Positions 10,859 through 23,992 of a stretch of 26,491 bases of DNA are shown here, one piece after another (positions within the stretch are counted from its first letter, which is position 1; the number at the start of each line of letters is the position of its first letter). The stretch is from a virus: the IMG/VR virus record IMGVR_UViG_3300010354_000534, positions 1-26,491 of that record; one strand, given 5' to 3'. Below the pieces are notes generated by a model that did not search any database, was not told the origin of the DNA, and was given only the letters and a program-made list of their open reading frames with translations. The position numbers were made by a program, and so were the translations under genes.

Positions 10859-11617
10859 GTGGCAGCATCTTCCTCAATCGCCAACTTCATAGCAGCTATA
10901 TCCGCCCAGGGCGGCATGTCCATGTCAAATGGATATGATGTAGAATTTAAATTTGGAAGTGCAACAAATGAACTAACAAAACTATTCAAATCTACAGGCA
11001 CATCTGGATTAGGAATAGACCCAGCTTCTGGTACTCCTTCAAATGGCGGATATCTATTAAAAGTTTTATGTGATGAAGCACAGTTGCCAAATGTTCAAGC
11101 AGCAACTGGTCAAATTAACGGTAGGTACTTGGGGGAAGGAACTGTAAACTATCCACACACAAGATTGTACAGTGACTTCTCTTTATCTTGGATGTGTGAT
11201 GCCAACATGCTTCCATTAAAGTTTTTAACTGTCTGGCACAGTTATATCTTTGCTGGTGATAGAGTTGGATTTACTCCTGACCCAAATAGTTCTGCTAGCA
11301 ACCTACCAAAATTTGTTAATGGTCAAAAATTAGAACAACTTAAAGGGGAGGCAGCAAGAATTCCTAACAGAAATGTTCGTTTAAAATTTCCTTCATCATA
11401 TGTTTGTAACGTTCAGATTACAAAGACCGAACGCTCAGCAAATGCACCAAATGGCAGAGCGTCTGCGACATATATTTTAGAAGATTGCTATCCATATTCT
11501 ATTGATGCAGTTCCATTATCTTATGGCACATCACAGATCACAAAGGTAAGTGCTAACTTCTATTACGCCAAGCAAACCGTAATCTTCAACAACATACCTG
11601 TGTCATTTAGAGGATAA
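10859..11617 (+). CDS. gp54: Baseplate tail tube initiator gp54
   Basis: This 252-aa tube-like protein is probably the homologue of T4 gp54, which sits on gp48 and starts tail tube polymerisation. An N-terminal helix (SSIANFIAAIS) leads into SNGYDVEFKFG, matching the helix-then-strand start of gp54/gp19 proteins. The remainder alternates strands (GRYLGEGTVNYPHTRLYSDF, KLFPSS-type loops, AVPLSYGTSQITKVSANFYY). The GTG start is chosen because it keeps the N-terminal helix and lies 27 bases after a late motif. ATG codons at 10916 and 10922 are alternatives. T4 gp54 is longer (320 aa). Confidence 0.75.
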   Translation: MAASSSIANFIAAISAQGGMSMSNGYDVEFKFGSATNELTKLFKSTGTSGLGIDPASGTPSNGGYLLKVLCDEAQLPNVQAATGQINGRYLGEGTVNYPHTRLYSDFSLSWMCDANMLPLKFLTVWHSYIFAGDRVGFTPDPNSSASNLPKFVNGQKLEQLKGEAARIPNRNVRLKFPSSYVCNVQITKTERSANAPNGRASATYILEDCYPYSIDAVPLSYGTSQITKVSANFYYAKQTVIFNNIPVSFRG

Positions 11618-11645: not shown

Positions 11646-12359
11646 ATGGCGTTACCTAAAATTGGTGTACCAAATTATGAGTTGGAGTTGCCTTCAACTG
11701 GTAAACATATTAAGTATAGACCGTTCCTAGTTAAAGAAGAAAAGGTTTTACTGTTAGCATTAGAATCTGAAGAAGAAAAACAAATTACTGCTGCAGTAAA
11801 AGATTTAATTAAGGGATGTGTTCTTTCTAGAATCAAAGTAGAAGAGTTGCCAGCTTTTGATTTAGAATATTTGTTCTTAAAAATAAGAGCAGCTGCTGTT
11901 GGTGAAATTATTACCATGAATGTAACCTGTCTTGATGATGGAGAGACAGTAGTAGAAGCTCAAATTGATATTAATGAAGTAGAAGTTTACAAACCAGAAG
12001 GGCATACAAATAAAATTATGATCGATGATTCCATTGGAATGATCATGAAGTATCCTAGTATGGATAGGTTTATTGAATCTGAATTTTTAAACAAAGATAT
12101 TAAAACGGAAGAAGTATTCGATTTCATTGCTGATTGCATTGAACAAGTATATCAGGGCGATGAAGTTTGGGATATGACTACTACCAGCAAGAAAGAATTG
12201 AAGGAATGGGTGGGAACATTTACTACAAAACAATTCGAGGAGATCAATAAATTTTATGAGACAATGCCTAAATTGAAGCATGAGTTTAAAGTTACAAATC
12301 CTAAAACCAAAGTAGAATCTACCTATACGATTGAGGGGTTACAATCTTTTTTCGCGTAG
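11646..12359 (+). CDS. gp26: Baseplate hub assembly protein gp26 (tail assembly chaperone candidate)
   Basis: This 237-aa protein matches the T4 gp26 family (T4_baseplate domain): MALPKIGVPNYELELPSTGK, IKYRPFLVKEEKVLLLALES, then the helical region with ETMPKLKHEF near the end. In T4, gp26 acts in baseplate hub formation. The ATG at 11646 matches the family start; the frame is open from a TTG at 11631. It terminates GLQSFFA, and the FF codons form a T_TTT_TTC slippery site. A fraction of ribosomes is expected to shift and continue into the next frame. The position directly before a tape-measure-like gene supports a chaperone role. Confidence 0.85.
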   Translation: MALPKIGVPNYELELPSTGKHIKYRPFLVKEEKVLLLALESEEEKQITAAVKDLIKGCVLSRIKVEELPAFDLEYLFLKIRAAAVGEIITMNVTCLDDGETVVEAQIDINEVEVYKPEGHTNKIMIDDSIGMIMKYPSMDRFIESEFLNKDIKTEEVFDFIADCIEQVYQGDEVWDMTTTSKKELKEWVGTFTTKQFEEINKFYETMPKLKHEFKVTNPKTKVESTYTIEGLQSFFA

Positions 12360-12385
12360 CACTCTTCCAAAATAGTTTGGAGGGG
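12347..12385 (+). promoter_or_regulatory. -1 programmed ribosomal frameshift signal
   Basis: The slippery heptamer T_TTT_TTC (12347-12353) is in register with the gp26 frame. An 8-base spacer follows, then a stem-loop: 12362-12371 pairs with 12376-12385 in 10 bp, including two G-U pairs, around a 4-base loop. Heptamer, spacer length and stem fit the canonical -1 signal. The gp26 stop codon (12357-12359) lies in the spacer. Confidence 0.8.
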
Positions 12386-12538
12386 TATTATAAAACTAAT
12401 TTTGCTTTAATGCAGTACCATAAATATAGCTTGAGTGAAGTTGAAAATCTAATACCTTGGGAAAGAGAAGTTTATACTTCTTTATTGATGCAGTATATTC
12501 AGGAAGAGAAAGCAAAACAAGAAGCAGCTAATCGATGA
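12353..12538 (+). CDS. Frameshift extension of gp26 (gp51 position; GT-like)
   Basis: This is a 61-codon open frame in -1 relation to gp26. After the shift it reads RVALFQNSLEGYYKTNFALM and later LSEVENLIPWEREVYTSLLM, ending in a charged helix EEKAKQEAANR. It has no start codon with a ribosome binding site: the only in-frame ATG (12410) follows GGAGGGG by a 24-base gap. Expression by frameshift is therefore favoured, giving a 297-aa fusion. The stop overlaps the start of the tape-measure-like gene (ATGA). Its place corresponds to T4 gene 51, and its form to the T part of lambda gpGT. Independent translation from 12410 (42 aa) is the alternative. Confidence 0.75.
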   Translation, partial: RVALFQNSLEGYYKTNFALMQYHKYSLSEVENLIPWEREVYTSLLMQYIQEEKAKQEAANR

Positions 12539-15500
12539 TACCCGATAATGCAATAAAACCAATAAGAAACCCCAACGGTAGAGATAATACAGAAATTGCT
12601 GTTGGAACTCTTATTGCTTATAGAGTTTTTCCGCAAACACAAGAAGGTATTCAACAGGCAAAGGATACTATTGCTGCTAATAATAATTGGGTAGTCCCTT
12701 CATTACTACCAGAATATTATGATGGTATTGATAGTGACTTGATGGTTGGAAAAGAGAATGATTCTATTAGAGCAATTCGTGAAACATTAAAACAATTTTA
12801 TGGATTGCTTTCTTCATCTGCTGGCACAGAAGAATTTATAGATACAACTGTATATACTCCAGCAGATAAATTTGTTGATGACGGTAAAGAATTTGCTTTA
12901 AAAATAGAAACTGATCTTGAAGATGCTTTAGAAAAAACATCTGACGAGATCATGGATTCTATTGATGAAATTCTTAGACAAGATCAGGAAAAGTTTGAAG
13001 AGTTTAAAAGAAAACAAGAAGAAGAGTTAAAGAAAAAAATTGAGAAACTCAATACACCAGAAAGAGTTTCCCAAGAACTTACAATAAAAATTCCCCCAGC
13101 TCATTATATACAGGGAACTGCTGGTAGATGGCAACCAGAATTTGAAAATGATATTGATCATGCCGTATACTTTGCTGGGAAATCTCCATTACCAAAGGGA
13201 GCAAAGCAACGAGAAGTTCTTGATTGGTTAAAAAGTTTAGGATTAACGTTTGAACAAATACATAGTCATCGTGAAAAAGTATTAGATCAAATTCGAAAAA
13301 CGATTGCCCTACCTGGAGTAGAAGAAGAATATCCATATGTTTATATTGATGCAGTAGATCAAGATTTTCAACTACGTGATAATGAAGAGGAAGAAAATCC
13401 TGAAGGACTTGATGATTTGTTAGGAGAGATACGAGATGAAACTGAGTTTGAAAAACAAGAACAAGAAGAGCAGGAAGAATTAGAAGAACAAGTAAGTGTT
13501 GCTGTAGATACTTTAGAGCAGGCCGATGAAGCAAAACAGGAAGTAATTGAAGAAGATTTACTAGATGATTTGCCCGACTCTGTTAAAGAATCTTTAATAG
13601 AGATTCTTAATAAAAGAAAAAGATCTACGAGCACCAAAGAAAAAAAATCTTCATCAATTACTAATGCAAAAATATATAATTTTCTAACAACAAATTTAAT
13701 TAAAATACAAAATCAATTTGAAAGTATAGACAGGTCTATTCAGAAACAAAACGAAATTCTTTCTGCGAATTTTGCTTCAACATCATCCATGATTCAAAGC
13801 ATGGAAGCACAGAATTCTCTGTTGATCGATAGGATTGATGCTTTAACACAAGAATATAAAAAGCAAAATCAATATCAAAAAGATTTACTTGATCAGCAAG
13901 AAAATATCGATGCAGAAAAAAGTTTAGAAAATATAAAAGATACTGCTGGAACTGAAGGGTTTGTTGATACAACTAAAGGTAACAAGAAAAAATCTGTACC
14001 GTCACATATAGCACAGTATTTTAAAAGACAAGCTTTAAGAAAATTATATAGAAAAATGCCAGGTGGATTGAGAAAGGCAAGAATTGGGTATAAAAAATTA
14101 CAAAGAAAACCACGAATATTAAGACAAAGAATTGCAGGACAGGTTTCTTCACGACTTCCTACATCTGTTCGAAAATCTATGTCAACGCTTTCTAAAGTAA
14201 AGGGAGCGGGATCTGTTGCAAGAAATCTTGGACCAGCGAAGTATGCATTTGCTGGAATGGAATATGCAGAAAGAAAGAAAGCGGGGCAAAGTAATTTACA
14301 AGCAACTGCTGGAGTAGGTGTTGGGTTGGCGGCAGCGTCAGCTGCTGGTGCAGCAGGTGCAAAGGGTGGTGCAATCATTGGAACATTCCTCGGTGGTCCT
14401 ATTGGCACAGCAATTGGAACTGTTGTCGGAGGACTTGGCGGTGCAATTATTGGTGGAATTCTTGGCAGCAAAGCTTCTGATGTTGTAACTGGTGTTCATG
14501 AAACTGGGGGAGAAACTAAACCAGGAATTGCTACGTTACATGGAACAGAACTTATCATAAACAAAAATAATCAAAACAATACAGAATTATATAATCCAGA
14601 AGCTACCATAGCAAGAGCACTTCTTGGCGCTACTGTTGGGTATGTTAATCAGGCTGGACCAGCAGCAGCATCGCTCACTCCAGTGATTAAACAGTTAGCA
14701 TCACCATTGATTAAACAATATGGTATGCCAAATATTCTAGTTCAAAGTGATTTTGGTGGTGCGATACCTCCATTAGAATCTACAATAAACGGAACAAAAA
14801 AACCTAAAACTGCTCAGGAAGAATTGTCGGAACTAGAAAGATCTTTATTAGAAGAACAAAATCCTCAAACGTTTGCAGAAAAACTTATGAAGATGCTGGA
14901 TCCAGAAGGAAGGTTCCAACAATTATTAAAGCAAATAGGAAGCGGAGATCCAAGTCCAGATGCATATGATGGTTCTGGTATTGTTGGAGATTTGAAAGGT
15001 AATATTGTCAATCCGATGGAAGCAGGAGAAATACAAGATTATCCTGGTGCTAAGTTTGGTGCTCCTAGAGAAGGAGGTAGGAAACATAAAGGAAGAGACA
15101 TTGTTGGAACACCTGGAATGAAATTTAGTGCTGCTTTACCTGGAACAGTGACTAATATTATTGAAGTTGCTGATCTTCCTGGTGGTGGGGTCAGTAAAGG
15201 AATATATGTTAAACATGATAATGGAATGGAAACCAGATATTTGCATGTGAAACCTTCTGTTAAGGTTGGGGATACGGTAAAAGCAGGACAAAAATTAGGA
15301 ACTATAACGGACACTGATAATATTAGTTCAGTACCTCATCTTCATTTTGAAGTCATAGTAAAAGGAACGCATGTAGATCCAGAACCTTTACTGAAGGGAG
15401 CATTTAAAATAAAAGATATCTCTGCTGGTAAAGTTCCTGGTCTGACAATAGAAAACTATGATGGAACTAAACCTCCAGAAAATAAACCCCAAGCAGCTCA

Positions 15501-16254
15501 AGAAATATCTCAAAACTATGGTAAAAAAGTTGGGGAAAGAATTTATTTTCCATTCAATAATAGAGAATTTAATGCATATAAAACTAGAACTGGGTGGGAT
15601 ATTTATGATGGTCCAACAAAACTCGACACCAGTAATGGAAAAAATTCTGATGTTGTGAAAGCGTTTACAGACCACGCCAGCACTCAAATGCCCAGAGACA
15701 CTGGAACTTCTCCTGATCTTACGGGCACGGACTTTCAAAGAGAAAGAGGTGGTCCAGTTGCTGCAAACACTCCTTACATAGTTGGCGAGGCAGGACCAGA
15801 ATTATTTGTTCCAAAAGAAAATGGATTTGTTATAAACAATCAACAAACTGCTGGACTTGTTGATATGGTTGACCGAATGATATTTGGTAAGCCAAATAGA
15901 GGTCCGTCAACTGTTAGGTATAAATCTGGACCTAGAGATGCTATCGAAGGAATTGGGGGTAAGTATTATGCTCCTTACAGTCCAGATCCATCCTTCAAAC
16001 CAGTGAGAGAAGCGATGCTTGATAAGAATATGTACAGTAAACCAAGCAAAGATACCTCATTGATTGCTACAAATTTAGATCAATCTTCTGATGCAGGACA
16101 GTATGTAATTGTGAATCAACAATCCCAAGAAAATGTTGCTTCTAACATTACACGACCATTTGAAGTAAATACGATACGTCAAGGACAATCAAGATCAAAT
16201 AAAGATCATAATAATACTATTAGAAACATAGTTATGCAGCGACTTGTTGGATAA
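12535..16254 (+). CDS. Tape-measure-like tail protein with M23 peptidase domain
   Basis: The product has 1239 residues. In order it shows an N-terminal domain, coiled-coil and very acidic segments (about 110-180 and 290-360) and a basic region near 490-550. A glycine-zipper hydrophobic stretch follows (about 600-650). An M23 metallopeptidase domain spans about 840-960, with His851-xxx-Asp855, His904 and His935-Leu-His937, the complete zinc and catalytic set. VGEAGPELFVP near 1083 is a motif often found at the ends of phage tape measures. Residues 990-1060 resemble a segment of the next protein. The position after the frameshift chaperone pair supports the tape-measure role. Substrate cleavage of peptidoglycan cross-links is inferred from the domain. 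Confidence 0.75.
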   Translation: MIPDNAIKPIRNPNGRDNTEIAVGTLIAYRVFPQTQEGIQQAKDTIAANNNWVVPSLLPEYYDGIDSDLMVGKENDSIRAIRETLKQFYGLLSSSAGTEEFIDTTVYTPADKFVDDGKEFALKIETDLEDALEKTSDEIMDSIDEILRQDQEKFEEFKRKQEEELKKKIEKLNTPERVSQELTIKIPPAHYIQGTAGRWQPEFENDIDHAVYFAGKSPLPKGAKQREVLDWLKSLGLTFEQIHSHREKVLDQIRKTIALPGVEEEYPYVYIDAVDQDFQLRDNEEEENPEGLDDLLGEIRDETEFEKQEQEEQEELEEQVSVAVDTLEQADEAKQEVIEEDLLDDLPDSVKESLIEILNKRKRSTSTKEKKSSSITNAKIYNFLTTNLIKIQNQFESIDRSIQKQNEILSANFASTSSMIQSMEAQNSLLIDRIDALTQEYKKQNQYQKDLLDQQENIDAEKSLENIKDTAGTEGFVDTTKGNKKKSVPSHIAQYFKRQALRKLYRKMPGGLRKARIGYKKLQRKPRILRQRIAGQVSSRLPTSVRKSMSTLSKVKGAGSVARNLGPAKYAFAGMEYAERKKAGQSNLQATAGVGVGLAAASAAGAAGAKGGAIIGTFLGGPIGTAIGTVVGGLGGAIIGGILGSKASDVVTGVHETGGETKPGIATLHGTELIINKNNQNNTELYNPEATIARALLGATVGYVNQAGPAAASLTPVIKQLASPLIKQYGMPNILVQSDFGGAIPPLESTINGTKKPKTAQEELSELERSLLEEQNPQTFAEKLMKMLDPEGRFQQLLKQIGSGDPSPDAYDGSGIVGDLKGNIVNPMEAGEIQDYPGAKFGAPREGGRKHKGRDIVGTPGMKFSAALPGTVTNIIEVADLPGGGVSKGIYVKHDNGMETRYLHVKPSVKVGDTVKAGQKLGTITDTDNISSVPHLHFEVIVKGTHVDPEPLLKGAFKIKDISAGKVPGLTIENYDGTKPPENKPQAAQEISQNYGKKVGERIYFPFNNREFNAYKTRTGWDIYDGPTKLDTSNGKNSDVVKAFTDHASTQMPRDTGTSPDLTGTDFQRERGGPVAANTPYIVGEAGPELFVPKENGFVINNQQTAGLVDMVDRMIFGKPNRGPSTVRYKSGPRDAIEGIGGKYYAPYSPDPSFKPVREAMLDKNMYSKPSKDTSLIATNLDQSSDAGQYVIVNQQSQENVASNITRPFEVNTIRQGQSRSNKDHNNTIRNIVMQRLVG

Positions 16255-20275: not shown

Positions 20276-23200
20276 ATGGATCCTGTATTATCTTCACTAT
20301 TTCCTGTGCATCAAATTGGTGTCGATGGATTTAATTGGTGGATAGGACAAGTAGAATCAAATAGAAGTGATGACCCCAAAAAATCTGGGAGATATCGTGT
20401 TAGAATTGTCGGACAACATTTAAAAGATTGTACAGCAACACCAACACAACAACTTCCATGGGCAAACGTAATGATGCCCGTCACCACGCCACATTCTGAC
20501 GGGGGTGTAACTGGAGCGACTTCTAATTTAAGAAAGGGTAATTGGGTAATAGGTTTTTTCTTAGATAATGATCAACAAAAACCAATTATCTTAGGATCAA
20601 TTGGTCACACTCATGGATCTACAAAAGCAATTGCTGAAGATACAAATCCTGGTTCTTCGTGTAAATCTTTTACAACTTATCTAGATCCAGAACGAAATCC
20701 TTCTACAGATAATCCAAAACATTCTCCAACCACTGCTTCTACTGACTCTGGTTTAGAATCTGGGTCAAATGTTACTGGTGCTGCTCCAGCAGCATCTTCA
20801 TATGCTGATACTCCAGACGGATTACCTCCAGAAATATTAGCTGCCTTTGGTAAAAACACAGAAGCAAATCCAACGGGAGGAAAGTTTTGTATCACGATAG
20901 CAGATCCAAATTGTGGCGCAGAAAGTGATTTAAAAAGTGGATTGCAAAAAATCCTTGGTGATTTTTTTGGAGCAGTGTCTTCTTCAGGAGGCAATGTAGG
21001 ATCTTATTATTTAAACCAAGCTACTGGTGCAGTAAACAGCAGTTTACAAGACGGTAAAAAATATATAAATCAAGCTGCTAGATTAGTAACATCAACTATT
21101 GCTAGAGCGAAGGGAGAACTATTGGAGGCAGTAAAAAATGGGGCAAAAGATCTAACAGACCTTGCTCTTTATAAAGAGACAAGAACTCTACCAATTATTC
21201 CAAATGATATTAATATTCCTGCAGAAACTCTAGCATCCCTAGGAGCGACTGCAGCGGCGTTTGATTCTGCATTAGCTGCTGGAGATACAGCAACCGCAGA
21301 TGTTCTTGCTGAAGCATACGTAGCATTATTAGAACAAGTTGCTGGTGAAAGAGGTCATCCTCCCGTAAAGAAAAAGGAAGCGAGATTAAAAGAAGTACAG
21401 GAATGGTTAGACAATATTCTAAAAACAATTGGATGTAGCATAGAAGATATTACTGATAGAATATTACAATGGTTGACTGAATTATTTAATTCCTTGATAT
21501 CAGAAGCTTATAATGCTGCTCTATGTTTGGTTGATAATATTGTAAACGGAATTATATCAGAAATTTTATCAGCAATTGATGAGTTAATTGATACTATTCT
21601 TTCTGCGATTTCGGAATTGCTCGGACCAATAGCACAAGCAATTGATATTGTTGGTAATGCCATAGCAGAAATCATGTCATTGCTTGGCATATCTTGCTCT
21701 GGTCTTCCTCAAACATGTACAAAATTGAAAACAGTTTGTGTTGACTGTACTAATGGAGAAACTGAACCAGATTTCTTGGATAATTTAATTTCTACCATAG
21801 AAGATGGAACATTAGATTATACTGAAGGTGTGTGTGAAGAAGCAACATACTATCCACCAGTACCAGCGACTACAATTGTTTTTGTTGGAGGGACACCAGC
21901 TGTTCCTGATAATACTATGACATATTCCTCTTCAAATATTGTAGTTGCTGAAGGATCGACGCAGGAATTTATAGTTACTAGAACAGGTAATGTCGATTCT
22001 GCTTCCAGTATTAGATATGAAATAACAAATGATACTGCTGTAAGGGGAACGGATTATGATATCTTAGGGACCTCAGGTATTCTTTCTACTGCTTCGGGCA
22101 TTCTTGCTTTTGCTCCAGGAGATAAAGAAAAACGTGTCAACATACAAGCATATGCAGATTCTTTAACGGAAGGAGATGAAACGTTTAACTTTAGAATTTT
22201 TGAAGAGCACACTCCAGATGGAATCACAGCTGTTTTCGTGAACCAAGATTTTATTGGTACAATTTCTGAAGTTATTACTCCAACAACACCAGTACCTGGG
22301 AGTGTTCCTACATCTCCAGGAATTGTTTCTCCAGGAGCAGGTACTCCTACTTCCCCTACTGGTGCCGCCACTGCTGCAGTACCAGTAGTTGTGCCTACAG
22401 GCGTCATACCTTCAGGGATTGTACCTGTTGCTCCAGTCGTAGCTGTAGTGCCAGCAGCAAGTTCATCGCCAGCGTTGCCATTATATTCTGTGACTGCAGA
22501 TAGAGTTTCAGTTGCAGAAACAGAAACGGTTACGTTTACTATTTCAACAGTCAACGTTACTGCTGGAACTGCATTTACTTATACAATAGATGGAACAAAT
22601 ATAACTGGTGCTGATTTTACAGACAATTCTTTAACTGGTTCTGGAACAATAAGTTCAACTGGAACAGCAACAATCACCAAGACATTGGCATCTAATGATG
22701 ATAATGTTGGATTAGATTTACAAGAATCATTTACGTTTACTGTGGATGGAACAGGAGCTTTCGCTACTGTTGCAATTGTAGAAGAAATAGATACAACTCC
22801 ACAGTATTTTGTAACAGCAGATCAAAGTAGTATTGATGGTGGTGAAACAGTAAACTTCATTGTAACTACAAGAAATGTTGCTGATAATACTTTATTGTCC
22901 TATAGATTAACAGGAACAATTGATGCATCTGATATTGATGGTGGTTCTTTGACTGGTTCCTTCAAAATTGTTGGAAATACAGCAACTATACCAATCAAAA
23001 CTGTGGTATCAACAACGATTGAAGATGCAGAAGCAATGACATTCTTATTAGTTGGAACGACTGCTGAAGCAACGGTAACAATTAATGCTACAACAACGTT
23101 TGCTCCAGCAACAACAACAATACTAAGAAGTTATGGTGTAGTTTCAGATAAGTTGGAGTATGAAGAAGGGGAAACAGTTGTACTAACAGTTAGCACAACT

Positions 23201-23992
23201 AATGTTCCTGATGGATCTGTGTTTGCTTATACTATCTTTGGATCTAATATAACCCCATCTGATTTTATTACTGGTAAATTAACAGGTTCTCTTACAATCA
23301 TTGATAATTCTGCTAAAGTATATCTTTCCATATCAGAAGATAGACAGGTTGAGTTAGATGAGACGGCAACTTTTTATATTAATGGAACTAGTGCATTTGC
23401 TGGATTTATTATTCTGGGAGATCAAATTAGAAGAACTCCACCAGAAAGTCCTAAAGTGACACCATGTTTATCCAAACCAGTTGCAGAGGCATTGACAGAT
23501 GAAAGTGGTAGAATTATTAGCATACCAATTATTGATAGGGGATGTCCTTACTCAACGCCACCTAAAGTTATCATTGGCGGATCTGGATATGGAGCTGGTG
23601 CAATACCGTTACTAGATGCAGATGGTTATGTATCAGAAGTACGCCTTACAAGAACTGGATTTAATTATAAAAAGAATACGCCAGACAATCTGACATGTAT
23701 TATTGATTCATTCACTATGATAAGACCAGGAACTGGTTATACAGAAGCACCAGATGTATTCGTTAATGGCGAATCAAATGTTGCTAGAGCAATCATACAA
23801 GACGGGAGAGTTTTTAGTATTCAAGTTATAGATAGAACTAAATCATACAAACAACTACCAGAAATTTTAATTGTTGGTGGTGGAGGTTCTGGAGCGAAGT
23901 TTTTACCTTCGCTTGCATGTTTAGATGTTGCAGAACTAGAACTCAACGATTACACCAAGATCGGCACAGGTAAATACATCGATTGTCCATAA
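20276..23992 (+). CDS. gp5: Large gp5-like baseplate hub protein, no lysozyme domain
   Basis: The product has 1238 residues. Residues 1-125 form the gp5 N-terminal OB-fold (WWIGQVESNRSDDPKKSGRY, RVRIVGQH, GNWVIGFFLDNDQQKPIILG), which seats on gp27. There follow a low-complexity linker, an unusual run of amphipathic hydrophobic helices (about 377-478), and a Calx-beta-like domain (about 545-655, with EGSTQEFIVTR and EGDETFNFRI). A Pro/Thr linker comes next, then three tandem Ig-like repeats (about 737-835, 844-940, 953-1058) and a C-terminal part with repeated Gly-rich strands. The T4 gp5 lysozyme domain is not recognisable, and the needle is a separate gene downstream. Confidence 0.82.
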   Translation: MDPVLSSLFPVHQIGVDGFNWWIGQVESNRSDDPKKSGRYRVRIVGQHLKDCTATPTQQLPWANVMMPVTTPHSDGGVTGATSNLRKGNWVIGFFLDNDQQKPIILGSIGHTHGSTKAIAEDTNPGSSCKSFTTYLDPERNPSTDNPKHSPTTASTDSGLESGSNVTGAAPAASSYADTPDGLPPEILAAFGKNTEANPTGGKFCITIADPNCGAESDLKSGLQKILGDFFGAVSSSGGNVGSYYLNQATGAVNSSLQDGKKYINQAARLVTSTIARAKGELLEAVKNGAKDLTDLALYKETRTLPIIPNDINIPAETLASLGATAAAFDSALAAGDTATADVLAEAYVALLEQVAGERGHPPVKKKEARLKEVQEWLDNILKTIGCSIEDITDRILQWLTELFNSLISEAYNAALCLVDNIVNGIISEILSAIDELIDTILSAISELLGPIAQAIDIVGNAIAEIMSLLGISCSGLPQTCTKLKTVCVDCTNGETEPDFLDNLISTIEDGTLDYTEGVCEEATYYPPVPATTIVFVGGTPAVPDNTMTYSSSNIVVAEGSTQEFIVTRTGNVDSASSIRYEITNDTAVRGTDYDILGTSGILSTASGILAFAPGDKEKRVNIQAYADSLTEGDETFNFRIFEEHTPDGITAVFVNQDFIGTISEVITPTTPVPGSVPTSPGIVSPGAGTPTSPTGAATAAVPVVVPTGVIPSGIVPVAPVVAVVPAASSSPALPLYSVTADRVSVAETETVTFTISTVNVTAGTAFTYTIDGTNITGADFTDNSLTGSGTISSTGTATITKTLASNDDNVGLDLQESFTFTVDGTGAFATVAIVEEIDTTPQYFVTADQSSIDGGETVNFIVTTRNVADNTLLSYRLTGTIDASDIDGGSLTGSFKIVGNTATIPIKTVVSTTIEDAEAMTFLLVGTTAEATVTINATTTFAPATTTILRSYGVVSDKLEYEEGETVVLTVSTTNVPDGSVFAYTIFGSNITPSDFITGKLTGSLTIIDNSAKVYLSISEDRQVELDETATFYINGTSAFAGFIILGDQIRRTPPESPKVTPCLSKPVAEALTDESGRIISIPIIDRGCPYSTPPKVIIGGSGYGAGAIPLLDADGYVSEVRLTRTGFNYKKNTPDNLTCIIDSFTMIRPGTGYTEAPDVFVNGESNVARAIIQDGRVFSIQVIDRTKSYKQLPEILIVGGGGSGAKFLPSLACLDVAELELNDYTKIGTGKYIDCP
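22480..23430 (+). repeat. Three tandem Ig-like protein repeats within gp5
   Basis: Three units of about 100 codons each start YSVTADRVSVAETETVTF, YFVTADQSSIDGGETVNF and YGVVSDKLEYEEGETVVL. Each continues through a Tyr-Thr-Ile/Leu strand, then LTGS, and ends with a strand near DGTGAFA or NGTSAFA. They are diverged at DNA level, so they are old duplications. Confidence 0.75.

Follow-up and report, generated by a model that had tools for sequence, protein, structure and literature searches.

In the window analysed here, the whole of a virus record of 26,491 bases, psbA is found at the left end and a gene for plastoquinol terminal oxidase at the right end. Its T4-like genes include gp32, gp53, gp48, gp2, gp4, a tail-tube-family protein and gp26. 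Because of the two end genes and this T4-like gene set, the window is identified as cyanophage DNA. The features discussed below follow one another on the plus strand. The first is the gene of the tail-tube-family protein (gp54-like; 10859-11617), whose product matches PF23849 (E 6.1e-52) and phrog_45 and whose true start is probably located further in. Downstream of it lies gp26 (11646-12359), which encodes a protein of 237 aa matching PF12322 (E 8.8e-72) and phrog_150 (E 1.1e-77); the ATG at 11646 is its most likely start, and the proteins of relatives begin at MALPK. The 3′ end of gp26 reads CAA TCT TTT TTC GCG TAG, with the stop codon TAG at 12357-12359. The -1 frame continues beyond this stop as an extension (12347-12538; 63 codons plus TGA) whose product, counted from 12347, consists of FF and 61 further residues before a TGA that forms part of an ATGA. 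The earlier note on this DNA had described a -1 frame open for 61 codons and ending on the ATGA of the next gene, and this description was borne out. The predicted junction peptide of the fusion between gp26 and the extension is EGLQSFFRVALF... The ATG of the next gene, at 12535, overlaps the stop codon of the extension. This gene (12535-16254; 1239 aa) is probably the tape measure gene. Its product contains an M23 peptidase domain at residues 850-949 (PF01551, E 3.5e-19) and has weak matches to tape-measure PHROGs; a single-sequence model of its first 500 residues displays long helices, but with a poor pLDDT of 51. Elsewhere in the window (20276-23992) lies the gene of a protein of 1238 aa, named hub subunit and tail lysozyme; this protein has an OB domain of the gp5 type and a Calx-beta domain and shows tape-measure-like matches to PHROGs.

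Near the end of gp26 lies the slippery heptamer T_TTT_TTC (12347-12353, plus strand). The earlier note had placed it in register with gp26, and the phase is indeed the right one. By itself the heptamer says little, because the ORFs of the window, with 7558 codon positions in total, contain T_TTT_TTN in frame at 7 of them. The note had also proposed to align the junction across cyanophage genomes. A set of 90 loci including the window was assembled from IMG/VR and phage records, of which 81 are non-redundant, though not independent of one another. The alignment demonstrated that the T_TTT_TT core is present in all 81 non-redundant loci, always with six T, in the same phase and at a constant 10 nt ahead of the gp26 stop codon; the next base is C in 78 loci, A in 2 and G in 1. 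The naive probability of such conservation, calculated from codon usage and ignoring phylogeny, is about 1e-72. Elsewhere in these genes, Phe-Phe is written TTC TTT in 39 of 67 cases and TTT TTC in only 3. The conjunction of the heptamer with the features that accompany it, and the conservation seen in 81/81 loci, are not the product of chance.

One of the accompanying features is a predicted stimulatory hairpin (12361-12386, plus strand), separated from the heptamer by a spacer of 7 nt (12354-12360) that contains the gp26 stop codon and whose length lies within the 5-9 nt expected ahead of the RNA structure of a -1 frameshift signal. In the RNAfold prediction, positions 12361-12371 pair with 12376-12386 to give a stem of 11 bp closed by a 4-nt loop (12372-12375), with a stability of -13.1 kcal/mol when folded alone. 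The z-score against dinucleotide shuffles is -4.4, and 0 of 200 shuffles were as stable. The hairpin and the 4-base loop are those of the earlier note, which had omitted the outer pair and had therefore counted a 10-bp stem and an 8-base spacer. Selection on the structure beyond codon choice was analysed locus by locus, by randomising the synonymous codons of the -1 frame and comparing fold stabilities. With a 33-nt folding window, the mean z was -3.06 and the hairpin reached p<=0.05 in 55/81 loci, against 1 and 5 loci in the next two windows and 21 in a third, more distant one. Longer A/U-rich hairpins, that of S-PM2 (14 bp) for example, went undetected at 33 nt, and the analysis was hence repeated with 48 nt. 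In this form the hairpin was significant in 62/81 loci and not significant in the other 19 (L004, L006, L033 and L044 among them). The stem is thus selected at the nucleotide level in most of the loci. The compensatory changes that the earlier note had suggested looking for are a more modest matter. In the clade of the window, one C-G pair is replaced by G-C and many pairs alternate between G-U and A-U; in a second clade, covariation did not exceed that of shuffles. RNAalifold found no common structure across all clades, because the register of the hairpin slides between them. The third, more distant folding window of the 33-nt analysis covers the segment 12458-12490 and its equivalents in relatives (+101 to +133 after the gp26 stop), which fold somewhat better than synonymous shuffles, with p<=0.05 in 21/81 loci.

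The third part of the signal, absent from the earlier note, is an internal Shine-Dalgarno-like GAGG (12333-12336, plus strand, within GAGGGG at 12333-12338) located 10 nt 5′ of the heptamer. Across the 81 loci, the Glu at this site is encoded by GAG in 58 of 67 codons, compared with 28% elsewhere. In 8 of the 9 cases where GAA is used, the next codon is GGG (Fisher p 1.4e-4), and Glu-Gly pairs elsewhere use GAA in 50/60. Pairing with the anti-Shine-Dalgarno sequence at the site has a z of about -13 against synonymous shuffles. The element is selected at the nucleotide level and is a putative stimulator of frameshifting. It also bears on the question of which enzyme would slip. The conservation of a homopolymer of exactly six T could mean that RNA polymerase, and not the ribosome, slips on the run and thereby makes a fused message. 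This explanation is extremely improbable, since the run never departs from the X_XXY_YYZ phase of ribosomal slippage, the Shine-Dalgarno-like element would act on ribosomes, and a run of six bases is short for efficient transcriptional slippage.

Evidence that the extension is translated comes from the pattern of substitutions. Between the gp26 stop and a late ATG (residue ~22), pN/pS in the -1 frame is 0.20, whereas the other two frames give 1.40 and 1.47; the values obtained for the extension are 0.20 and 0.14, and that of the gp26 tail is 0.23. Past the gp26 stop, the -1 frame is coding and subject to purifying selection. In 34/81 loci, the window included, it has no ATG before residue 21, and in 12/81 it has no ATG, GTG or TTG in this stretch, the residues there being conserved in both groups. 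On the 5′ side, a stop closes the frame a short distance ahead of the heptamer (median 24 nt), and in S-CREM2 this stop immediately precedes the heptamer. Because the stretch is conserved and the frame is closed just upstream, the loci devoid of start codons leave little room for an independent start of the extension.

These observations have to be set against an alternative in which the extension is an independent small gene (gene 51), expressed either by termination-reinitiation past the gp26 stop or from the ATG at 12410. Annotators have listed it as its own gene 51 in S-PM2, Syn1 and S-RSM4, and in many relatives belonging to other clades the -1 frame has an ATG at its codon 5 or 8, close behind the gp26 stop; in these, reinitiation is a possible extra route. 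The earlier note had pointed out that the extension has no ribosome binding site of its own, and no match resembling one was found before ATG 12410 or TTG 12377. This is a weak point, however, because gp26 itself lacks such a match and its absence is common in this phage; the argument that a missing ribosome binding site proves frameshifting was dropped for this reason. What makes a separate gene very unlikely is that purifying selection extends over residues encoded before any ATG, or before any start codon at all, in the loci counted above. It would also leave the invariant phase of T_TTT_TT, the internal GAGG and the hairpin unaccounted for, and in T4 both domains are fused in one ORF.

The comparison with T4 indicates what the fused product may be. 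The extension matches phrog_634 (E 1.1e-26), the family of the gp51 'hub assembly catalyst', as well as the C-terminal end of phrog_150 (E 1.5e-5), and hhalign (prob 92.8) places it on the final 50 residues of T4 gp51; it can be described as a gp51 C-terminal domain, or TAC-C-like. In T4 gp51, in turn, residues 1-201 match PF12322 and residues 147-246 match phrog_634, and T4 gp26 and T4 gp51 are paralogues (E 2e-6). Direct comparison of the window's gp26 with T4 gp51 by BLASTP and hhalign gave nothing useful, and the match was obtained with the family profiles. Because T4 gp51 consists of a complete gp26-like domain and an extension-like domain, the counterpart of the window's gp26 would be T4 gp26, and that of the frameshift fusion, in domain layout, T4 gp51. 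The earlier note had put the extension in the place of T4 gene 51. This holds for the ~50 C-terminal residues of gp51, but it is the whole fusion that would be equivalent to the T4 protein. Relatives of T4 gp51 are full-length single genes: at least 80% of the protein is held in one place in 1334/1339 records.

A chaperone function is proposed for the pair. The AlphaFold2 model of gp26 has a pLDDT of 89; the PDB entry that matches it with the highest probability is 2ob9, a tail assembly chaperone of HK97 (prob 0.77 and 0.72, but E 0.6), with 3fgx at prob 0.51. The match to 2ob9 is a hint only, because an E of 0.6 is below significance. A search of solved structures by sequence returned chance matches only. 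The frameshift could be real and its products could nevertheless be structural proteins of the baseplate hub. Databases name gp26 a baseplate hub subunit, and some studies place gp26 in the T4 hub, according to a review of the T4 tail (PMC3004832). That review also names gp26 and gp51 among the chaperones of hub assembly and reports that the finished particle lacks gp51 (PMC3004832). A short and a long form encoded directly before a probable tape measure gene is, moreover, the layout of chaperones, towards which the fold of gp26 also points weakly. A purely structural role in the hub is accordingly unlikely.

Taken together, the conserved signal, the selection on the -1 frame and the gp51 layout support the central proposal of the earlier note, and a programmed -1 frameshift very probably yields a pair of short and long tail assembly chaperones, gp26 and its fusion. 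Reading from the sequence, we infer that frameshifting takes place in cells, that its rate is such that only a minority of ribosomes shift, that the fusion is a functional product and that the pair acts as chaperones. The process might run as follows. As a ribosome approaches the end of gp26, which would encode the short tail assembly chaperone (TAC-N), the internal GAGG could pair with its 16S rRNA, and the hairpin located 7 nt past the heptamer would make it pause. On T_TTT_TTC, both tRNAs can re-pair one base back. Most ribosomes would terminate at the TAG at 12357 and release gp26, whereas a minority would slip into the -1 frame and extend the protein by 61 residues to the long form (TAC-NC), with the domain layout of T4 gp51. 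Both forms would coat the tape measure, recruit parts of the tail tube and hub and then depart.

The arrangement of the next gene raises a further possibility. In 71 of the 77 loci with an assigned start, the next gene begins between -11 and +3 nt from the stop of the extension (ATGA, TAATG), and in the window no Shine-Dalgarno match was found for it. With its start overlapping or abutting the stop of the extension, the tape measure might also be dosed by the frameshift, a suggestion that is tentative and rather doubtful. If most translation of the tape measure did come from frameshifted ribosomes, a single three-part signal would set the ratio of short chaperone to long chaperone to tape measure.

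When the fused protein was used as query, at least 80% of it was found in one place in 521/886 matching phage records. The same type of heptamer, followed by the extension, was identified in Aeh1, AS-szw, Cronobacter S13, Vibrio CZ01 and VmeM-32, Stenotrophomonas Bhz51, Sinorhizobium phiM9 and phiN3, Rhizobium IG49 and S-CREM2, the heptamer being placed 7 to 13 nt before the stop in these ten phages. In the Ackermannviridae phage Mutine of Salmonella (2660-2821 of locus L097) and in Vibrio phage K445 (2579-2755 of L098), the -1 frame persists but a canonical heptamer is absent; gp26 ends in GAG ATT TTC ATT TAA and TCA CTT TTC AAG TAA, respectively. In Aeromonas phage Aeh1 (2513-3457 of L099), T_TTT_TTC stands 10 nt ahead of the stop codon of gp26; the -1 extension that follows is unannotated and overlaps the next gene by ATGA. 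It had been reported that gp51 of cyanophages and of marine vibriophages is devoid of its first ~200 residues and that Aeh1 has no gp51 (Sullivan et al., 2010; PMC3037559). Both the 'truncated' cyanophage gp51 and the 'missing' gp51 of Aeh1 fit long forms encoded by frameshifting, because the absent part fits as the other side of the frameshift. As a side observation, in the cyanophage S-CREM2, which has a 418-nm tail, virion proteins of 1565 and 1456 aa, both annotated as endolysin, are encoded directly after gp26 and the extension (3484-12555 of L102); one or both of them may be tape measures.

These findings point to a probable route by which cyanophages, and several other T4-like lineages, produce the partner protein for which T4 has its gene 51. 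Since the extension is routinely called a separate gene or overlooked in cyanophage records, the annotation of hundreds of genomes could be corrected. The conserved three-part signal would also be a good test case of recoding in cyanobacteria.

The order of the three parts is familiar from dnaX of E. coli, where the -1 signal comprises an internal Shine-Dalgarno-like sequence ~10 nt 5′ of the homopolymeric heptamer A_AAA_AAG and a downstream hairpin. The window has T_TTT_TTC instead, the genes are unrelated and the purpose differs. The frameshifted chaperone is likewise well known in other tailed phages and does not constitute a new kind of system. In the lambda G/GT pair, one message yields a short and a long form through a -1 shift close to the 3′ end of the gene for the short chaperone, which precedes the tape measure gene (PMC5009743). 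Unlike it, the window has the heptamer T_TTT_TTC, a stop 3 nt past the heptamer, and a hairpin and an internal Shine-Dalgarno-like element. The chaperones of Vandenendeviridae and Andersonviridae, such as phage Adele, share a conserved -1 frameshift at a poly-T sequence (GTTTTT) at the end of TAC-N (PMC12846349), although these are different families from that of the window. The earlier note knew of no description of the device in T4-like cyanophages, yet frameshifted chaperones have already been proposed for T4-like phages. According to PMC10885494, tail assembly chaperones of T4-like phages were proposed by Vladimirov, Gautam and Davidson (2022, Virology 566:9-15), and some T4-like phages have a separate fused gene instead of frameshifting; according to PMC12846349, poly-T slippery sites are known in TAC-N genes of T4-like phages. 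The window resembles these TAC-N/TAC-NC pairs in having a short and a long form of one chaperone and a poly-T slippery site, and the domain comparison supports gp26/gp51 as the corresponding pair of T4. In T4 the long form is encoded by a separate full gene 51, whereas in the window it would be produced from one gene by a -1 shift.
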